DNA from: Microbacterium murale
Lineage (GTDB): Bacteria; Actinomycetota; Actinomycetes; Actinomycetales; Microbacteriaceae
Direction of reading: 5' to 3'
Assembly (NCBI RefSeq): GCF_014635185.1
Contig: NZ_BMCM01000004.1
Span: 343,048-407,047, forward strand
DNA length: 64,000 bases
The position numbers and the translations under genes were made by a program. The notes beneath the pieces were generated by a model that saw nothing but the letters and a program-made list of their open reading frames with translations, was not told the DNA's origin and searched no databases. Each line of letters starts with the position of its first letter. Position 1 is the stretch's first letter. Of the stretch, positions 35,253 to 64,000 are shown one piece after another.

Positions 35253-35860
35253 GCGCTGCGCTCTCCCTGGTCGTGCGGACGTCGCGCTCCGGCGAGCGCC
35301 GCCGCACCGCCGCCGATCGCACCGAACAGATGCGCCTGCCACGAGACGCCTGGCCCGACGCCGACGATTCCGGCGAGCATCGACCCGCCGTACAGCACGA
35401 GCACGATCACGGCGATGAGGGCGTGCGCGATGCGGTGTGCGATCGGCCGCGGCGAGAACACGCGCACGACGATGTACGCGAAATACCCGAAGACGAGCAC
35501 GGAGGCCCCGACCGTGAGCGTTCCCGGCGCGTTGAGCAGCCAGGTGCCTGCACCGCCGACGAGCGCGGTGACGGCGGTGACCATCCAGAACCGGGCTGCG
35601 CCTTCGATCGCGATGAGGCAGCCGAGCACGAGGAGCGGCAGCGTGTTGCCTATCAGGTGGGCCCACCCTGCGTGCAGCAGCGGCCCCAGCACGAGACCCT
35701 GCAGACTGCCGAGATCCCACGACCTGAGGCCGAACCCGGTGAACGAGCCGGGAAGGATCGCGTCGAGGATCTGAATCGCCCACATCACGGCCACGAGCAC
35801 GACCGGCGAAGCGAAACGCGCGAGGGCAGCGGAACGCGGAGGACTTGCCGAGATGCTCAC
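35249..35860 (-). CDS. Rhomboid family intramembrane serine protease
   Basis: A 203-residue protein with six predicted membrane helices. HAGWAHLIGNTLPLLVLG matches the rhomboid HxxxN region of helix 2. TVGASVLVFGYFAYI contains the catalytic Ser motif (GASx, here GASV rather than GASG), and SWQAHLFGAIGGG carries the catalytic His. The GTG start at 35860 gives a protein beginning VSISASPPRS; the upstream extension would run through the candidate ffs gene. It is translationally coupled to the basic lysozyme-like membrane protein, a possible substrate. Confidence 0.88.
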   Translation of the reverse strand: MSISASPPRSAALARFASPVVLVAVMWAIQILDAILPGSFTGFGLRSWDLGSLQGLVLGPLLHAGWAHLIGNTLPLLVLGCLIAIEGAARFWMVTAVTALVGGAGTWLLNAPGTLTVGASVLVFGYFAYIVVRVFSPRPIAHRIAHALIAVIVLVLYGGSMLAGIVGVGPGVSWQAHLFGAIGGGAAALAGARRPHDQGERSA

Positions 35861-35926
35861 ACCACGATCCTCGCAGGAGAAGCTGTGCGCCGGGGGCTGA
35901 TGCGAGAAGTTCCAGGCAAAAGAAAT

Positions 35927-36014
35927 GACCCTCCGCGCACCCAGCAGAGCCCGGTTACCCTTGCTACGTTTCCGTCCTGGGGGAATTGGCCTGGATGCTG
36001 CCACGCGGAGAGCC
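35927..36014 (-). ncRNA. ffs: Candidate signal recognition particle RNA (small bacterial type)
   Basis: On the minus strand the region folds as a long hairpin. The 5' end GGCTCTCCGCG pairs over 11 positions (two wobbles) with the 3' end CGCGGAGGGTC. At the tip, CCCCAGG-AC-GGAAAC-GT-AGCAAGGG contains the SRP helix 8 features: CAGG opposite AGCA in the internal loop and a GGAA-containing apical loop. A TAGACT -10 (36026-36021) sits six bases before the 5' end, and CATTTCTTTTG follows the 3' end as a terminator. The length of about 88 bases fits small SRP RNAs. A covariance-model search would settle it. Confidence 0.82.
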
Positions 36015-36020
36015 TCGGAC

Positions 36021-36026
36021 AGTCTA
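36021..36026 (-). promoter_or_regulatory. -10 element of candidate ffs (TAGACT)
   Basis: Identical to the -10 hexamers of both tRNA genes here, and placed 6 bases before the predicted RNA 5' end. Confidence 0.65.
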
Positions 36027-36061
36027 CCCGGCGTTGAGCAGAGACACGAACCTGCGCCGGA

Positions 36062-36067
36062 TAGGCT
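36062..36067 (+). promoter_or_regulatory. Candidate -10 (TAGGCT) of the helicase gene
   Basis: TAGGCT lies 33 bases before the ATG at 36100, which has GGGGG 5 bases upstream. The predicted leader is about 25 bases. No clear -35 is visible. Confidence 0.4.
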
Positions 36068-36099
36068 CGAAGTCACGGCATTCGAACGACTGGGGGCAC

Positions 36100-39021
36100 A
36101 TGGATCTGCCCGCAGACGCCGTCCCCTTGGCATCGTGGCGCTTCACGGGGACGCTGCGCACATACCAGGCCGAGGTCCTCTCCCGGCTGACTCCGTCGGC
36201 AGACGGGCCCCTGCACGTCGTGGCCCCTCCCGGCTCCGGCAAGACGCTTCTGGGCCTGCTGCTCGCCGCACGCGAAGGCCATCGCACACTCGTGCTGACC
36301 CCGACGAACACGATCCGGCGGCAATGGCTGCGTGCCGCGCGAGAACTGGCGCCGCAGCCCGACGCCGTCTCCGACGACCCGGCTCGCCTCGCCGACCTCA
36401 CAGTGCTCACCTATCAGCTGCTCAGTGTCACCGGCGACGGCTCCCCGTTCGAGGATCTCGCGCGCGCCGAGTGGGTGGACGAGCTCGTCGCCGCCGGACG
36501 CAGCGAAGTGGACGCGGCCACCTGGCTCGCAGAGCTGGCAGTGGACAACACGTCCGCGTACCGCAGCGGCATCCGTCGTCGGGTGCGTCGTCTGCGCGGC
36601 CGATTCGCGCGGCAGCGCCCAGACGAGCTGGCGAGCGTCCTGCATCCGAACGCCGTCGCGCTGATGGATTCGATCGTGGATGCCGGCATCCAGACGATCG
36701 TGCTGGACGAATGCCACCACCTGCTCGACCATTGGGCGCTGGTGGTCGCGTACCTTGCCGGACGCATCCGCGAGAGCGGCGGCACCGGGCTGCTGATCGG
36801 GCTCACCGCCACGCTCCCGTCACCGGATGACGAGGCGGAGTTCGAAAACTACGACCAGCTCCTCGGTGCGGTCGATTACGAGGTGCCGACTCCGGCAGTC
36901 GTCAAGGAGGGCCACCTCGCGCCGTACCGCGATCATGTGTGGTTCACCGAGCCCACCCCCGCAGAGGCGACGTTCATCCGCCGCCACGAGGCACTGTTGC
37001 ACGAGCTGATGCTCCAGGTGCTGTCGACACCGGACGGTCTCTCCTTCATGGAAGAACAGCTGCAGCCTCGCGGCGATGGTGGGGATGCCGTGACGGACGA
37101 GGATCCGCTGGTCCGGCTCGACCGAGCACTCTCCGAAGACTTCGCCCTCACCCGCTCCTGCGCCGTGGTGCTGCGCGAGATCGCCCCGCAGCATCCCTTG
37201 GCGATCGCCCTGCCGGCGGCGCTGTTCGACCGATGCACCACGGACGACCTCCTCTCGGTGCTCGCACGTTTCGCGCACACCCGCCTGCTGGCGGACCCGG
37301 ATGCCGGGGCGCAGTGGGAGTATGTGCGACGGTCGTTGGCGGATTTCGGCTACCACCTCACCGATCGTGGCATCCGACGCGGGCGGAACCCCGTCGAGAC
37401 GACGCTCGCGTATTCCGCCGCGAAGGACCACGCGGCCGTCGACATCCTGCGCCTGGAGCTCGACGGCGCCGACGCCGATCGCATCCGGGCTGTGGTCGTC
37501 ACGGATTTCGTCGTCCACGGGAATCACCGCGGCCAGGCCGGCGACGACGCTGCCGGCGCACTGCGCGTGTTCGACCTGCTCGCGCACGACCAGGCGACAG
37601 CCGCGATGCGGCCGGTACTCATCACGGCGGAGCATCTGCGAGTCCGCGACGGTGACGCATCGACGATCGCGGCCGCGCTGACCGAACTGCTCGGCACGCA
37701 GGTCGAGGTCTCCGACGGCGTCGGCGCTGTCCGCGACCTTCGTGCTCCGAAAGTCGGCAGCGGCCGGATCGTCGCGGCCGTGTCCGAACTGATCCGGCGC
37801 GGCGAGGTCCGCGTGCTGGTGGGAACGCGCGGACTGCTCGGCGAGGGCTGGGACTGCCCGTCGGTGAACACCCTCATCGATCTGACCGCGGTCGCGACGT
37901 CGGCGGCCACGCAGCAACTGCGCGGCCGAACGCTCAGGCTCGATCCCGCATGGCCGCAGAAGGTCGCCCATAACTGGTCGGTCGCCTGTCTGATCCCCGC
38001 AGACGTCGTTCTCGACGATCTGGCGGAGCCTCGCCGTCTGCGACGCAAGCACAGTCACCTGTGGGGGCTGGATGCCGATGACCCCACCCGCATCGTCGCG
38101 GGTCTCGAGCACGCCCTCACGACCGAGGCCGCCGAGGCGCTGGAGCGCGTGCTCGGCAAGGACCGGACGGCCACCATCGAGGATCTGAATCGGATCACGA
38201 TCTCGGCTCTGCCGCCGCGCGCGCAGACGCACGTCGATTGGCGGATCGGCCATCCATACGTGCCCCGCGAGCGCGACGTGGTGTCGGTGCGCGACAGCCG
38301 ACGCGCACCGCCGTTGTTCCGCACGGCGCCGGCCATCGCGGCCCGCGCACCTATGCGACTCCTCCTCGGCGGTCTGGGCGTCGGCACGGCCACCGCGATG
38401 CTGAGCGAGTGGGGTCTCATCTCGATCGAGCCGGCAGCGGGTCTCGGTGTGGCACTGGTCGGTGGTCTGCTCATCGCCGCATCGCTCTCTGCGCCGGCGT
38501 TCATCCGCTCGCTGCGCGACCGCGCGCATCCTGACGCGGTGTATCACGGGGCTGCCATCGCCGTCGTCCGCGGTCTGCGCGCGGCGGGCAGGATCGGGGA
38601 GCTCGACGAGAGCACGATCACCGCGCGGATCGAGGCGGCAAGCCCGGAGCGGATACGCATCGAGATCGGCGGGAGTGAGACTGACCGACGAATCATCGCC
38701 GACGCGCTGGAAGAGCTGTTCGCCCCGGTCCGCACCCCACGGTTCCTGCTGCGCGTCGACCACGGCGCTTCCGGCGGCTTCTGGCCGACGGCGTGGCTCG
38801 CCGATCGCCTCTCCCCCGGAAGAACGCTTCTCCCTGTGCCGCGCATGCTCGGTCGCCGTCGAGCGGATGCCGAGAGTTTCAGCGAGTACTGGGCGCAATG
38901 CGTCGGCGGCTGCTCGCTCCGCGAGCTGAACGGCCTCGAAGGAGCCGTGCTCCTCCGAATCGCCCGCACTGCGCAGAGCCGTCTCGACCCGACGGCGCCG
39001 AGGACTCGGATCTGGGGCTGA
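36100..39021 (+). CDS. SF2 DEAD/DEAH-type helicase with C-terminal membrane hairpin
   Basis: A 973-residue protein I cannot assign to a named family. The N-terminal half is an SF2 helicase: RTYQAEVL near residue 20, Walker A APPGSGKT at 42-49, LTPTNTIRRQW, DECHH at 203-207 (motif II), GLTATLP near 234. A ~320-residue insertion separates this from the second RecA fold, which shows LVGTRGLLGEGWDCPSVNTL near 573 and QQLRGRTLRLD near 605 (motif VI). Around residues 752-800 two hydrophobic segments (LLLGGLGVGTATAML; AAGLGVALVGGLLIAASLSA) form a likely membrane hairpin, followed by ~170 soluble residues. It could act at the membrane on incoming nucleic acid; this is inference. Confidence 0.85.
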   Translation: MDLPADAVPLASWRFTGTLRTYQAEVLSRLTPSADGPLHVVAPPGSGKTLLGLLLAAREGHRTLVLTPTNTIRRQWLRAARELAPQPDAVSDDPARLADLTVLTYQLLSVTGDGSPFEDLARAEWVDELVAAGRSEVDAATWLAELAVDNTSAYRSGIRRRVRRLRGRFARQRPDELASVLHPNAVALMDSIVDAGIQTIVLDECHHLLDHWALVVAYLAGRIRESGGTGLLIGLTATLPSPDDEAEFENYDQLLGAVDYEVPTPAVVKEGHLAPYRDHVWFTEPTPAEATFIRRHEALLHELMLQVLSTPDGLSFMEEQLQPRGDGGDAVTDEDPLVRLDRALSEDFALTRSCAVVLREIAPQHPLAIALPAALFDRCTTDDLLSVLARFAHTRLLADPDAGAQWEYVRRSLADFGYHLTDRGIRRGRNPVETTLAYSAAKDHAAVDILRLELDGADADRIRAVVVTDFVVHGNHRGQAGDDAAGALRVFDLLAHDQATAAMRPVLITAEHLRVRDGDASTIAAALTELLGTQVEVSDGVGAVRDLRAPKVGSGRIVAAVSELIRRGEVRVLVGTRGLLGEGWDCPSVNTLIDLTAVATSAATQQLRGRTLRLDPAWPQKVAHNWSVACLIPADVVLDDLAEPRRLRRKHSHLWGLDADDPTRIVAGLEHALTTEAAEALERVLGKDRTATIEDLNRITISALPPRAQTHVDWRIGHPYVPRERDVVSVRDSRRAPPLFRTAPAIAARAPMRLLLGGLGVGTATAMLSEWGLISIEPAAGLGVALVGGLLIAASLSAPAFIRSLRDRAHPDAVYHGAAIAVVRGLRAAGRIGELDESTITARIEAASPERIRIEIGGSETDRRIIADALEELFAPVRTPRFLLRVDHGASGGFWPTAWLADRLSPGRTLLPVPRMLGRRRADAESFSEYWAQCVGGCSLRELNGLEGAVLLRIARTAQSRLDPTAPRTRIWG

Positions 39022-39046
39022 CGCCGGTGTCGGCAGGAAATCCGCC

Positions 39047-39063
39047 GGAGCGGAGGCCGCTCC
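39047..39063 (+). terminator. Weak hairpin after the helicase gene
   Basis: GGAGCGG-AGG-CCGCTCC forms a 7-bp stem 25 bases after the stop; no T tract follows, so termination strength is doubtful. A TACGAT hexamer (39071-39076) follows as a possible moxR promoter. Confidence 0.35.
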
Positions 39064-39116
39064 AGCGGGTTACGATCAATTCACGCGCACAGAAGCGCTG
39101 GGGCGAGAGGGAACGC

Positions 39117-40094
39117 ATGGACGACACCGGACCCGAGATCACGGCCGAGCAGTTCCGGACGCAGACCTCTGCCATTCTGACGTCCGTCGGCGAGGTGATC
39201 GACGGGAAGCCGGATGCCGTGCGCAGTGCGCTGGCCTGCCTGCTGGCCGAGGGCCACCTGCTCATCGAAGACGTCCCCGGCGTCGGCAAGACGATGCTCG
39301 CCCGCGCGATCGCCGCGAGCGTCGACGCCACGGTGCGTCGCATCCAGTTCACCCCTGATCTGCTGCCGGGCGATGTCACCGGCGTCTCCGTGTACAACCC
39401 GGTCGACCGCGAGTTCGAGTTCAAGCCGGGTGCAGTGTTCGCGCAGATCGTGATCGCCGACGAGATCAACCGCTCGTCCCCCAAGACCCAGTCCGCTCTT
39501 CTCGAGGCCATGGAGGAGGGGCAGGTCACCGTCGACGGGCGCACGCACCCCCTGCCGGAGCCGTTCCTCGTCGTCGCGACGCAGAACCCCCTCGAGATGG
39601 AGGGCACCTACGCTCTTCCGGAGGCGCAGCGCGACCGGTTCATGATGCGCATCTCGATGGGCTATCCGGATGCCGCGGCAGAGGCCCTCATGCTCCGGCA
39701 GCGCGACAGCGTCAATCCGCTCGCCGCGATCACCCCGGTCGCCGACGCTCGCGCGATCAGGCGACTGATCGGCTTCGCCCGCGCGGTGCATGTCTCCCCC
39801 GCCGTCGAGGAGTACGCCGTCGCTCTCTCGCAGGCCACCCGCACCGATCCGAGCCTGCACCTGGGCGCGAGCCCGCGCGCCACTCTTCAGCTCGTTCGCG
39901 CGGCCAAGGTGTGGGCGGCTCTGGACGGACGCGAGTTCGTGATCCCCGACGATCTCACCGCGCTGCTCGTGCCGGTGTTCGCCCATCGGCTCCTCCCGGC
40001 CCGCGGCGTGCACCGTGCGGGTGCACAGCCCGTTGAGGCCGCGCTCGCTCAGATCGTGGACCGCGTGCGCGTTCCGCTGGCCGCCAGATTCTGA
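39117..40094 (+). CDS. MoxR family AAA+ ATPase
   Basis: A 325-residue MoxR-type chaperone ATPase. Walker A LLIEDVPGVGKTM lies near residue 55, Walker B VIADEINRSSPKTQSALLEA near 115, sensor 1 VVATQNPLEMEGTY near 150, and the C-terminal lid contains HLGASPRATLQLVRAAK. GAGAGG precedes the ATG. It heads a compact operon with a DUF58 protein and a transglutaminase-like membrane protein, the conserved MoxR set proposed to fold or activate secreted or metal-binding complexes. Confidence 0.95.
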   Translation: MDDTGPEITAEQFRTQTSAILTSVGEVIDGKPDAVRSALACLLAEGHLLIEDVPGVGKTMLARAIAASVDATVRRIQFTPDLLPGDVTGVSVYNPVDREFEFKPGAVFAQIVIADEINRSSPKTQSALLEAMEEGQVTVDGRTHPLPEPFLVVATQNPLEMEGTYALPEAQRDRFMMRISMGYPDAAAEALMLRQRDSVNPLAAITPVADARAIRRLIGFARAVHVSPAVEEYAVALSQATRTDPSLHLGASPRATLQLVRAAKVWAALDGREFVIPDDLTALLVPVFAHRLLPARGVHRAGAQPVEAALAQIVDRVRVPLAARF

Positions 40095-63624: not shown

Positions 63625-64000
63625 TGCACGAATAGGTGACAGTTCTAGTCACGCCGCTAGTGCGACGGTCGTGTTCATGATGGTCTCGAATTCGATGGGC
63701 GTCAAACGTCCCAGGGCGGCCTGTCGGCGTCGCCGGTGATAGGTCCGTTCGATCCAGGTCGCGATCGCGATGCGCAGCTGCTCGCGGGTGGTCCAGGAGC
63801 GACGGTCGAGGACGTTCTTCTGCAACAGGGCGAAGAACGACTCCATTGCGGCGTTGTCGCCGCATGACGCCACCCGTCCCATTGATCCGACCAGTCGATG
63901 ACGGGACAGCGCACGCAGGAACTTCCGACTTCGGAACTGCGACCCGCGGTCGGAGTGAACTACGCAGCCGGCGACGTCACCACGCATCTGAACCGCGTTC
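63625..64000 (-). mobile_element. IS3-family insertion sequence, 3' part
   Basis: The transposase reading frame enters from beyond the right edge and ends at 63649. The IS end is probably between 63625 and 63648, where TGACTAGAACTGTCACC and TATTCGTGCA read on the minus strand; neither the target duplication nor the opposite end can be seen. It appears intact as far as visible. Confidence 0.75.
63649..64000 (-). CDS. IS3-family transposase OrfB, C-terminal part (runs off window)
   Basis: An integrase-core (DDE) transposase, here the last 117 residues. Reading from the edge it continues NAVQMRGDVAGCVVHSDRGS, with the second catalytic Asp in HSDRGSQF. ASCGDNAAMESFFALLQKN carries the catalytic Glu, and ATWIERTYHRRRRQAALGRL with LTPIEFETI closes the protein as in IS3-group OrfB. 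The frame is open through base 64000, so the internal ATG at 63987 is not the start. Confidence 0.93.
   Translation of the reverse strand, partial: NAVQMRGDVAGCVVHSDRGSQFRSRKFLRALSRHRLVGSMGRVASCGDNAAMESFFALLQKNVLDRRSWTTREQLRIAIATWIERTYHRRRRQAALGRLTPIEFETIMNTTVALAA

Follow-up and report, generated by a model that had tools for sequence, protein, structure and literature searches.

In a 64,000-nucleotide stretch of the Microbacterium murale genome (contig NZ_BMCM01000004.1, positions 343,048 to 407,047 of the forward strand; hereafter the window) we found a single gene, here called HEL, whose product joins an intact, XPB-like superfamily 2 (SF2) helicase core to a discrete inserted hairpin of membrane-like composition with positively charged flanks. 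We tentatively propose that HEL is a single-gene, membrane-anchored, XPB-like double-stranded DNA (dsDNA) translocase that most likely serves as an accessory defence against invading DNA at the membrane, a reading to which, taken whole, we assign a probability of roughly 0.42.

The gene occupies positions 36100..39021 (+) and translates into 973 amino acids with zero internal stops; its AlphaFold2 model has a predicted local distance difference test score of 89.7. This agrees with the protein length given in an earlier note, made from the letters alone, and the intact SF2 core claimed there was borne out by two family alignments of 41 and 70 rows. In Walker A (APPGSGKT, residues 42-49; 36223..36246, +), P44, G45, G47, K48 and T49 are invariant in the 41 rows and nearly so in the 70; in the DExH motif II (DECHH, residues 203-207; 36706..36720, +) five of five residues are invariant in the 70 rows; TAT of motif III (residues 236-238) and GEGWD (residues 581-585) are invariant or nearly so in both alignments; and in motif VI (QQLRGRTLRLD, residues 605-615; 37912..37944, +) Q606, G609, R610 and R613 are invariant in the 70 rows. 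HEL has what characterises an SF2 helicase, namely Walker A, a DExH motif II, a TAT motif III, motifs V and VI, and two RecA lobes. RecA1 spans residues ~17-240 (36148..36819, +; placed by Pfam, model and structure comparison) and RecA2 residues ~440-640 (37417..38019, +; model and structure comparison), both with approximate boundaries, and Pfam matches ResIII/DEAD, with its best stretch at ~residues 18-88, and Helicase_C at residues 563-614, slightly under the cut-off of that family. Between the lobes, the note had placed an insert of ~320 residues; DSSP on the model gives instead ~150 residues of helices (~285-437, boundaries approximate; 36952..37410, +), with RecA2 starting near 440, and a second helical insert lies inside RecA1 (residues ~118-178).

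Structure comparison places this motor nearest to DNA translocases. Its RecA1-RecA2 arrangement is common to HEL and to XPB/RAD25 (archaeal XPBII and the XPB of TFIIH), from which HEL differs by extra helical inserts, the hairpin and a C-terminal alpha/beta domain. The N-terminal region before the motor of XPB is a damage-recognition domain, and HEL is without it: the motor starts by ~residue 17, with residue 1 of the model aligning to about residues 298-300 of human XPB chains and residue 6 to about residues 57-58 of S. tokodaii XPBII. The NCBIfam equivalog for XPB (NF045503) scores HEL at 34.7 bits against a cut-off of 610. The top Foldseek match is Hef (E 2.7e-12); Hef/FANCM and the RIG-I-like helicases are SF2 enzymes whose two RecA lobes are separated by a helical insert, a layout also present in HEL, in which no Hef-like nuclease domain was found (28.1 against a cut-off of 610 for the Hef NCBIfam model). 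Repair motors are among the closest structures, the LGP2, MDA5 and Dicer helicases are also among the matches, and HEL would differ from RadD by its predicted hairpin and probably by its C-terminal part. From this core we infer that dsDNA would be the substrate.

Outside the motor, named families run out. The phage DNA helicases of PHROG 16 match residues 18-277 (E 7.8e-23), a best stretch made up of RecA1 and what directly follows it, with the rest of HEL uncovered; NCBIfam matches are weak and confined to the core; no nuclease family in the libraries searched matched HEL, and no Jet model is among its PADLOC matches. The C-terminal region matched zero Pfam families, and its profile found nothing better than E 0.1 among PDB sequences, in keeping with the earlier description of a soluble tail of no recognised family. 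The motor is of a known kind; its combination with an inserted hairpin, and the C-terminal domain, are unnamed in Pfam, NCBIfam, PADLOC and PHROGs as searched, which see the helicase core alone. The suggestion of an undescribed family survived these searches, in which no characterised housekeeping family was met, and no such family is named in the titles or abstract openings listed by literature searches on membrane-tethered, defence-island and XPB-like helicases.

Where the earlier note had seen hydrophobic segments near residues 752-800, model and hydropathy agree in predicting two long helices, at residues 743-770 (38326..38409, +) and 778-809 (38431..38526, +). In the model, this hairpin interrupts the C-terminal alpha/beta domain at its first loop: the first strand of the domain (residues 724-731; 38269..38292, +; placed by the model and by relatives without the hairpin) lies ahead of the hairpin, and the remainder (residues 811-973; 38530..39018, +; generic ferredoxin-like matches only) follows. 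The window protein alone offers modest evidence for an anchor (the mean hydropathy of its weaker helix is 1.36, against up to 1.48 in soluble-looking proteins of the window); it is the family, and not this one sequence, that excludes a chance origin of the pair. Among 71 rows counted as hairpin-bearing, with the window protein included and one gene present twice, both segments have a hydropathy of at least 1.2 in 71/71 and at least 1.4 in 67/71, and neither segment contains a charged residue in 60/71, figures that are partly built in, as the rows were labelled and the segments placed by hydropathy. The flank charges are not built in: the flank following helix 2 is net positive in 69/71 rows and the flank preceding helix 1 in 57/71, the connecting loop has a charge of zero or less in 63/71, and the mean flank charge exceeds the loop charge in 67/71. 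Identity to the window protein across 14 close relatives is 0.74 in RecA1, 0.70 in the insert region and 0.71 in RecA2, 0.51 in residues 641-735 and 0.52 in the C-terminal domain, and only 0.27 and 0.39 in the two hairpin helices; such constancy of composition with fast-drifting sequence is expected of a membrane anchor whose two ends both lie in the cytoplasm. A hydrophobic segment was also seen by inspection in 74/76 aligned rows of an order-level set (69 distinct sequences), L101 and L102 being the two without it. The hairpin-bearing rows have the features of integral membrane proteins (hydrophobic low-charge helices and positive cytoplasmic flanks, retained in relatives), and HEL is predicted to reside at the membrane. 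The C-terminal domain is confidently predicted in relatives that have no hairpin, which argues, indirectly, against burial of the hydrophobic segments.

Scanned with the family profile, bacterial and archaeal genomes gave at least 535 stretches at a tblastn E of 1e-3 or below, possibly including other SF2 helicases; the best 80, which were kept, belong to Microbacteriaceae, Actinomyces, Chloroflexota, Planctomycetota, Poseidoniales and others. A quick tree was built from 108 rows with the hairpin columns left out; 70 rows are labelled as having the hairpin and 38 as having none, and the label has to change three times on the tree, one change resting on a borderline call (L163). The hairpin is missing in an archaeal-planctomycete clade (33 rows) and in one Actinomyces clade (4 rows), and is present in Actinomyces bovis (L160) and in a Micrarchaeota row (L177); depending on the root of the tree, the changes may be gains or losses. 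In the order of a Poseidoniales genome the gene occurs in 59/96 genomes (completeness unstated), and nearly all matches there that reach the C-terminal domain come in two pieces that skip the hairpin, with one, a 942-amino-acid frame in G722, in a single piece. Relatives with and without the hairpin amount to a natural experiment on tethering the same dsDNA motor through one loop. On mobile elements, three plasmid records carry a relative (one Paenibacillus, with the hairpin, and two Tritonibacter), and a search of viral contigs found 14 matches to the motor, all weak and short and none at full length. Two unannotated human-faecal scaffolds marked UNVERIFIED and deposited as phage (MT838455 and MT836806; 6,285 and 8,689 bases) carry relatives of 922 and 923 amino acids (L311:3320-6088 and L312:1000-3771) that align with the family profile over almost their whole length and contain a pair of hydrophobic segments beginning near residues 711-743.

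HEL is patchily distributed: it is present in 62/296 Microbacterium genomes, that of the window included, and in 21/347 genomes and 7/104 genera of the order. Frameshifts or stops interrupt 6 of the 62 copies (G116, G150, G194, G205, G248 and G271; assembly error is possible). In the clade of the window, HEL lies between ffs and moxR, and the ffs adjacency of the window recurs in 20 other loci (53 were examined); in four loci HEL is found next to a transglutaminase-like gene at the opposite end of the moxR operon. When 30 ffs loci were examined, HEL stood beside ffs in three; the other 27 have a moxR match 42-211 bp from ffs (13 loci), a match at 0.7-1.3 kb (5 loci) or no match in the stretch covered (9 loci, two of them ended by a contig end). 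Four genomes (G024, G031, G068 and G073) carry HEL elsewhere and not at the ffs-moxR site. Several congeners have other genes in place of HEL in the ffs-moxR interval (window 36018-39116; L251-L270), which indicates that the interval accepts insertions.

The best evidence for a defence role is indirect and comes from g7, another genus of the order, in which HEL usually adjoins a type I Wadjet locus (JetABCD) without itself being a Jet protein. Wadjet is described, in passages of PMC10586767 and PMC12287153, as an anti-plasmid/phage, SMC-like system. HEL is present in 18/57 g7 genomes and JetA in 50/57, and since JetA is nearly universal there, co-occurrence is uninformative and adjacency alone counts. 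In 15 of the 18 carriers HEL stands at an end of the Wadjet locus: nine copies share the strand of jetA and end 48-106 bp ahead of it, and six follow jetABCD and a gene of major facilitator superfamily (MFS) type, again on the same strand, two of them with an extra 219-amino-acid gene between. Of the remaining carriers, G320 has HEL ~14 kb past jetA and separated from it by other genes, G547 has HEL and JetA on separate contigs, and G040 has no JetA match. The Wadjet operon lies at a conserved place in 21 g7 loci, and in the seven JetA-only g7 genomes examined HEL is missing from both intervals, the usual upstream neighbour directly preceding jetA in five. Identity to the L110 protein is highest in eight of the nine upstream copies (79-100%, with G735 matching in pieces of 64-80%) and lower in the remaining one (G751, 65%) and in every downstream copy (62-65%), a pattern that suggests either at least two insertions next to a single operon or relocations. 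Some genomes have other genes in these flanking intervals (L106, L288, L290 and L296), so the association could reflect an insertion hotspot instead of a functional link. Within Microbacterium, JetA occurs in 42/62 HEL carriers vs. 87/234 other genomes (Fisher p 1.5e-5, kinship ignored); we give this co-occurrence little weight because kinship is ignored and because 16 carriers at one shared site, with an S1-domain gene nearby, all have JetA.

Away from Wadjet, no fixed partner gene was seen and the neighbours change by site; those annotated are ordinary and variable (argininosuccinate lyase, F420 ligase, molybdopterin oxidoreductase, tRNA synthetases, an S1-domain protein and others, with asparaginase and YjbR beside the g7 HEL locus). 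No competence, conjugation or CRISPR genes were seen among them, and the earlier picture of a lone helicase with a predicted membrane hairpin, outside competence and conjugation loci, stands. A PADLOC scan took in 137 cluster representatives lying at most three genes from HEL at 27 loci (138 minus one HEL fragment; the neighbours of L141-L220 fall outside it). Among the best 25 of 125 matched families the clear matches are the g7 Jet proteins, with GajB, RTasHel and mads also appearing (no control set was used and no enrichment is claimed), and among the matches listed no Jet gene lies next to HEL at the 23 loci outside g7. In a metagenome-assembled genome (MAG) of Anaerolineales (Chloroflexota), a HEL relative comes after the hsdS-like and hsdR genes of a type I restriction system (L165:2869-11433). 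In a Microbacterium locus (L092:3202-10827), HEL directly follows a molybdopterin oxidoreductase gene and a HerA-like helicase gene lies a few genes away.

We reasoned that these observations would fit an ATP-driven dsDNA translocase of the XPB-like SF2 branch, acting as a lone gene product. The hairpin in the first loop of the C-terminal domain would hold the motor and that domain on the cytoplasmic face of the inner membrane; the domain, as the source of the hairpin, would position the motor, and ATP hydrolysis would drive its movement along DNA at that face. The presumed purpose would be to pull on or remodel invading plasmid, conjugative or phage DNA such that other host nucleases, perhaps Wadjet in g7, could act; as HEL has no recognised nuclease domain, host or defence nucleases would be needed to destroy the DNA. 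A more specific version, in which HEL is a membrane-tethered dsDNA sentinel that intercepts invading DNA and works with a DNA-cutting defence (Wadjet in g7), with relatives keeping the motor without the anchor, we regard as unlikely; if the Wadjet link is functional, a membrane-bound motor would join an anti-plasmid system.

The most serious competitor, not probable in itself and yet a real prospect, is a lineage-variable translocase for DNA repair or replication support, like XPB or RadD, in which the anchor merely localises the motor and no defence role exists. The nearest structures, which include repair motors, and the archaeal context favour it, as do two individual loci, a copy between lhr and a Nei/Fpg-like gene and another with a DNA polymerase III alpha gene three genes away; it also accords with the directly adjacent Pfam-annotated neighbours in Microbacterium, free of defence genes save for the HerA-like gene a few genes off in one locus. 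Repair sits less well with patchiness within one genus (62/296), with the apparent breakage of 6/62 copies and with the place of 15/18 g7 carriers at a Wadjet locus end, and it is this patchiness, the apparent loss and the Wadjet locus that put defence slightly ahead as the predicted role. Even if HEL proves to be a repair protein, a family present in Actinomycetota, Chloroflexota, Planctomycetota and archaea, whose C-terminal domain is unnamed in the searched libraries, would merit a model. We consider it improbable that the two helices serve packing or oligomerisation in a soluble protein without any anchor: the mildly hydrophobic weaker helix of the window protein (1.36) would allow it, but the uncharged segments (60/71), the flanks charged above the loop (67/71), the drift of sequence with hydrophobicity retained and the confident C-terminal domain of hairpin-less relatives speak for an anchor. 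Least credible of all is an RNA-directed helicase tied to protein targeting or translation; proximity to ffs and the LGP2, MDA5 and Dicer matches point that way, whereas the ffs adjacency is limited to one Microbacterium clade, the gene occupies other sites elsewhere, and the core is nearest to DNA translocases.

Several results weigh against defence at the membrane, beyond the hydropathy that is partly built into the hairpin counts, and the anti-phage or DNA-processing function offered in the earlier note is not established. PADLOC-DB 2.0.0 (a 2023 library) gave no significant defence match for HEL (best E 0.0025, helicase core only). Microbacterium copies with annotated neighbours lie between ordinary chromosomal genes, no defence gene being directly adjacent among the Pfam-annotated ones, and HEL and JetA are unlinked there, at least 121 kb apart in all 23 same-contig cases computed (of 42 genomes with both). 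In g7, the association may come down to just two insertions, or a single relocation, at a hotspot where other genes insert as well. In a Chloroflexota MAG (L182:985-9476) the relative lies between lhr and a Nei/Fpg-like glycosylase gene, a context that suggests repair. The hairpin-less relatives of Poseidoniales often stand in a recurrent neighbourhood that looks metabolic, as judged only from the N-terminal sequences of the neighbours (which we take to be sucC/sucD-like), as the neighbourhood of a cell-maintenance gene would. Finally, the relatives on scaffolds deposited as phage make a purely host-side role less certain, the origin of those scaffolds being either viral or bacterial.

Two features flank HEL in the window and lie outside the proposed system. 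The candidate ffs gene of the earlier note is confirmed as the small signal recognition particle RNA (Rfam RF00169, 60.4 bits; 35921..36017, -), the sole such RNA found in the genome; it is divergent from HEL, whose ATG lies 82 bp away from the 5' end of ffs. The promoter of its own that HEL had been credited with was not recovered, as a simple consensus scan found no sigma-70-like site in 35800-39300 (other promoter types are outside its reach). Downstream is a moxR-like ATPase gene (39117..40094, +; we keep the name moxR from the earlier note), which is close to ffs in many congeners without HEL there. Far from HEL, a 65-amino-acid open reading frame at 63649-63846 (-) presumably corresponds to the C-terminal end of an IS3-type transposase. 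In g7, the Wadjet operon is followed by the further MFS-like gene after jetD, often overlapping it by 4-17 bases, in 19/21 loci (L279-L296, L106 and L111; Pfam MFS_1 for L106), the other two loci (L110 and L283) ending before it.
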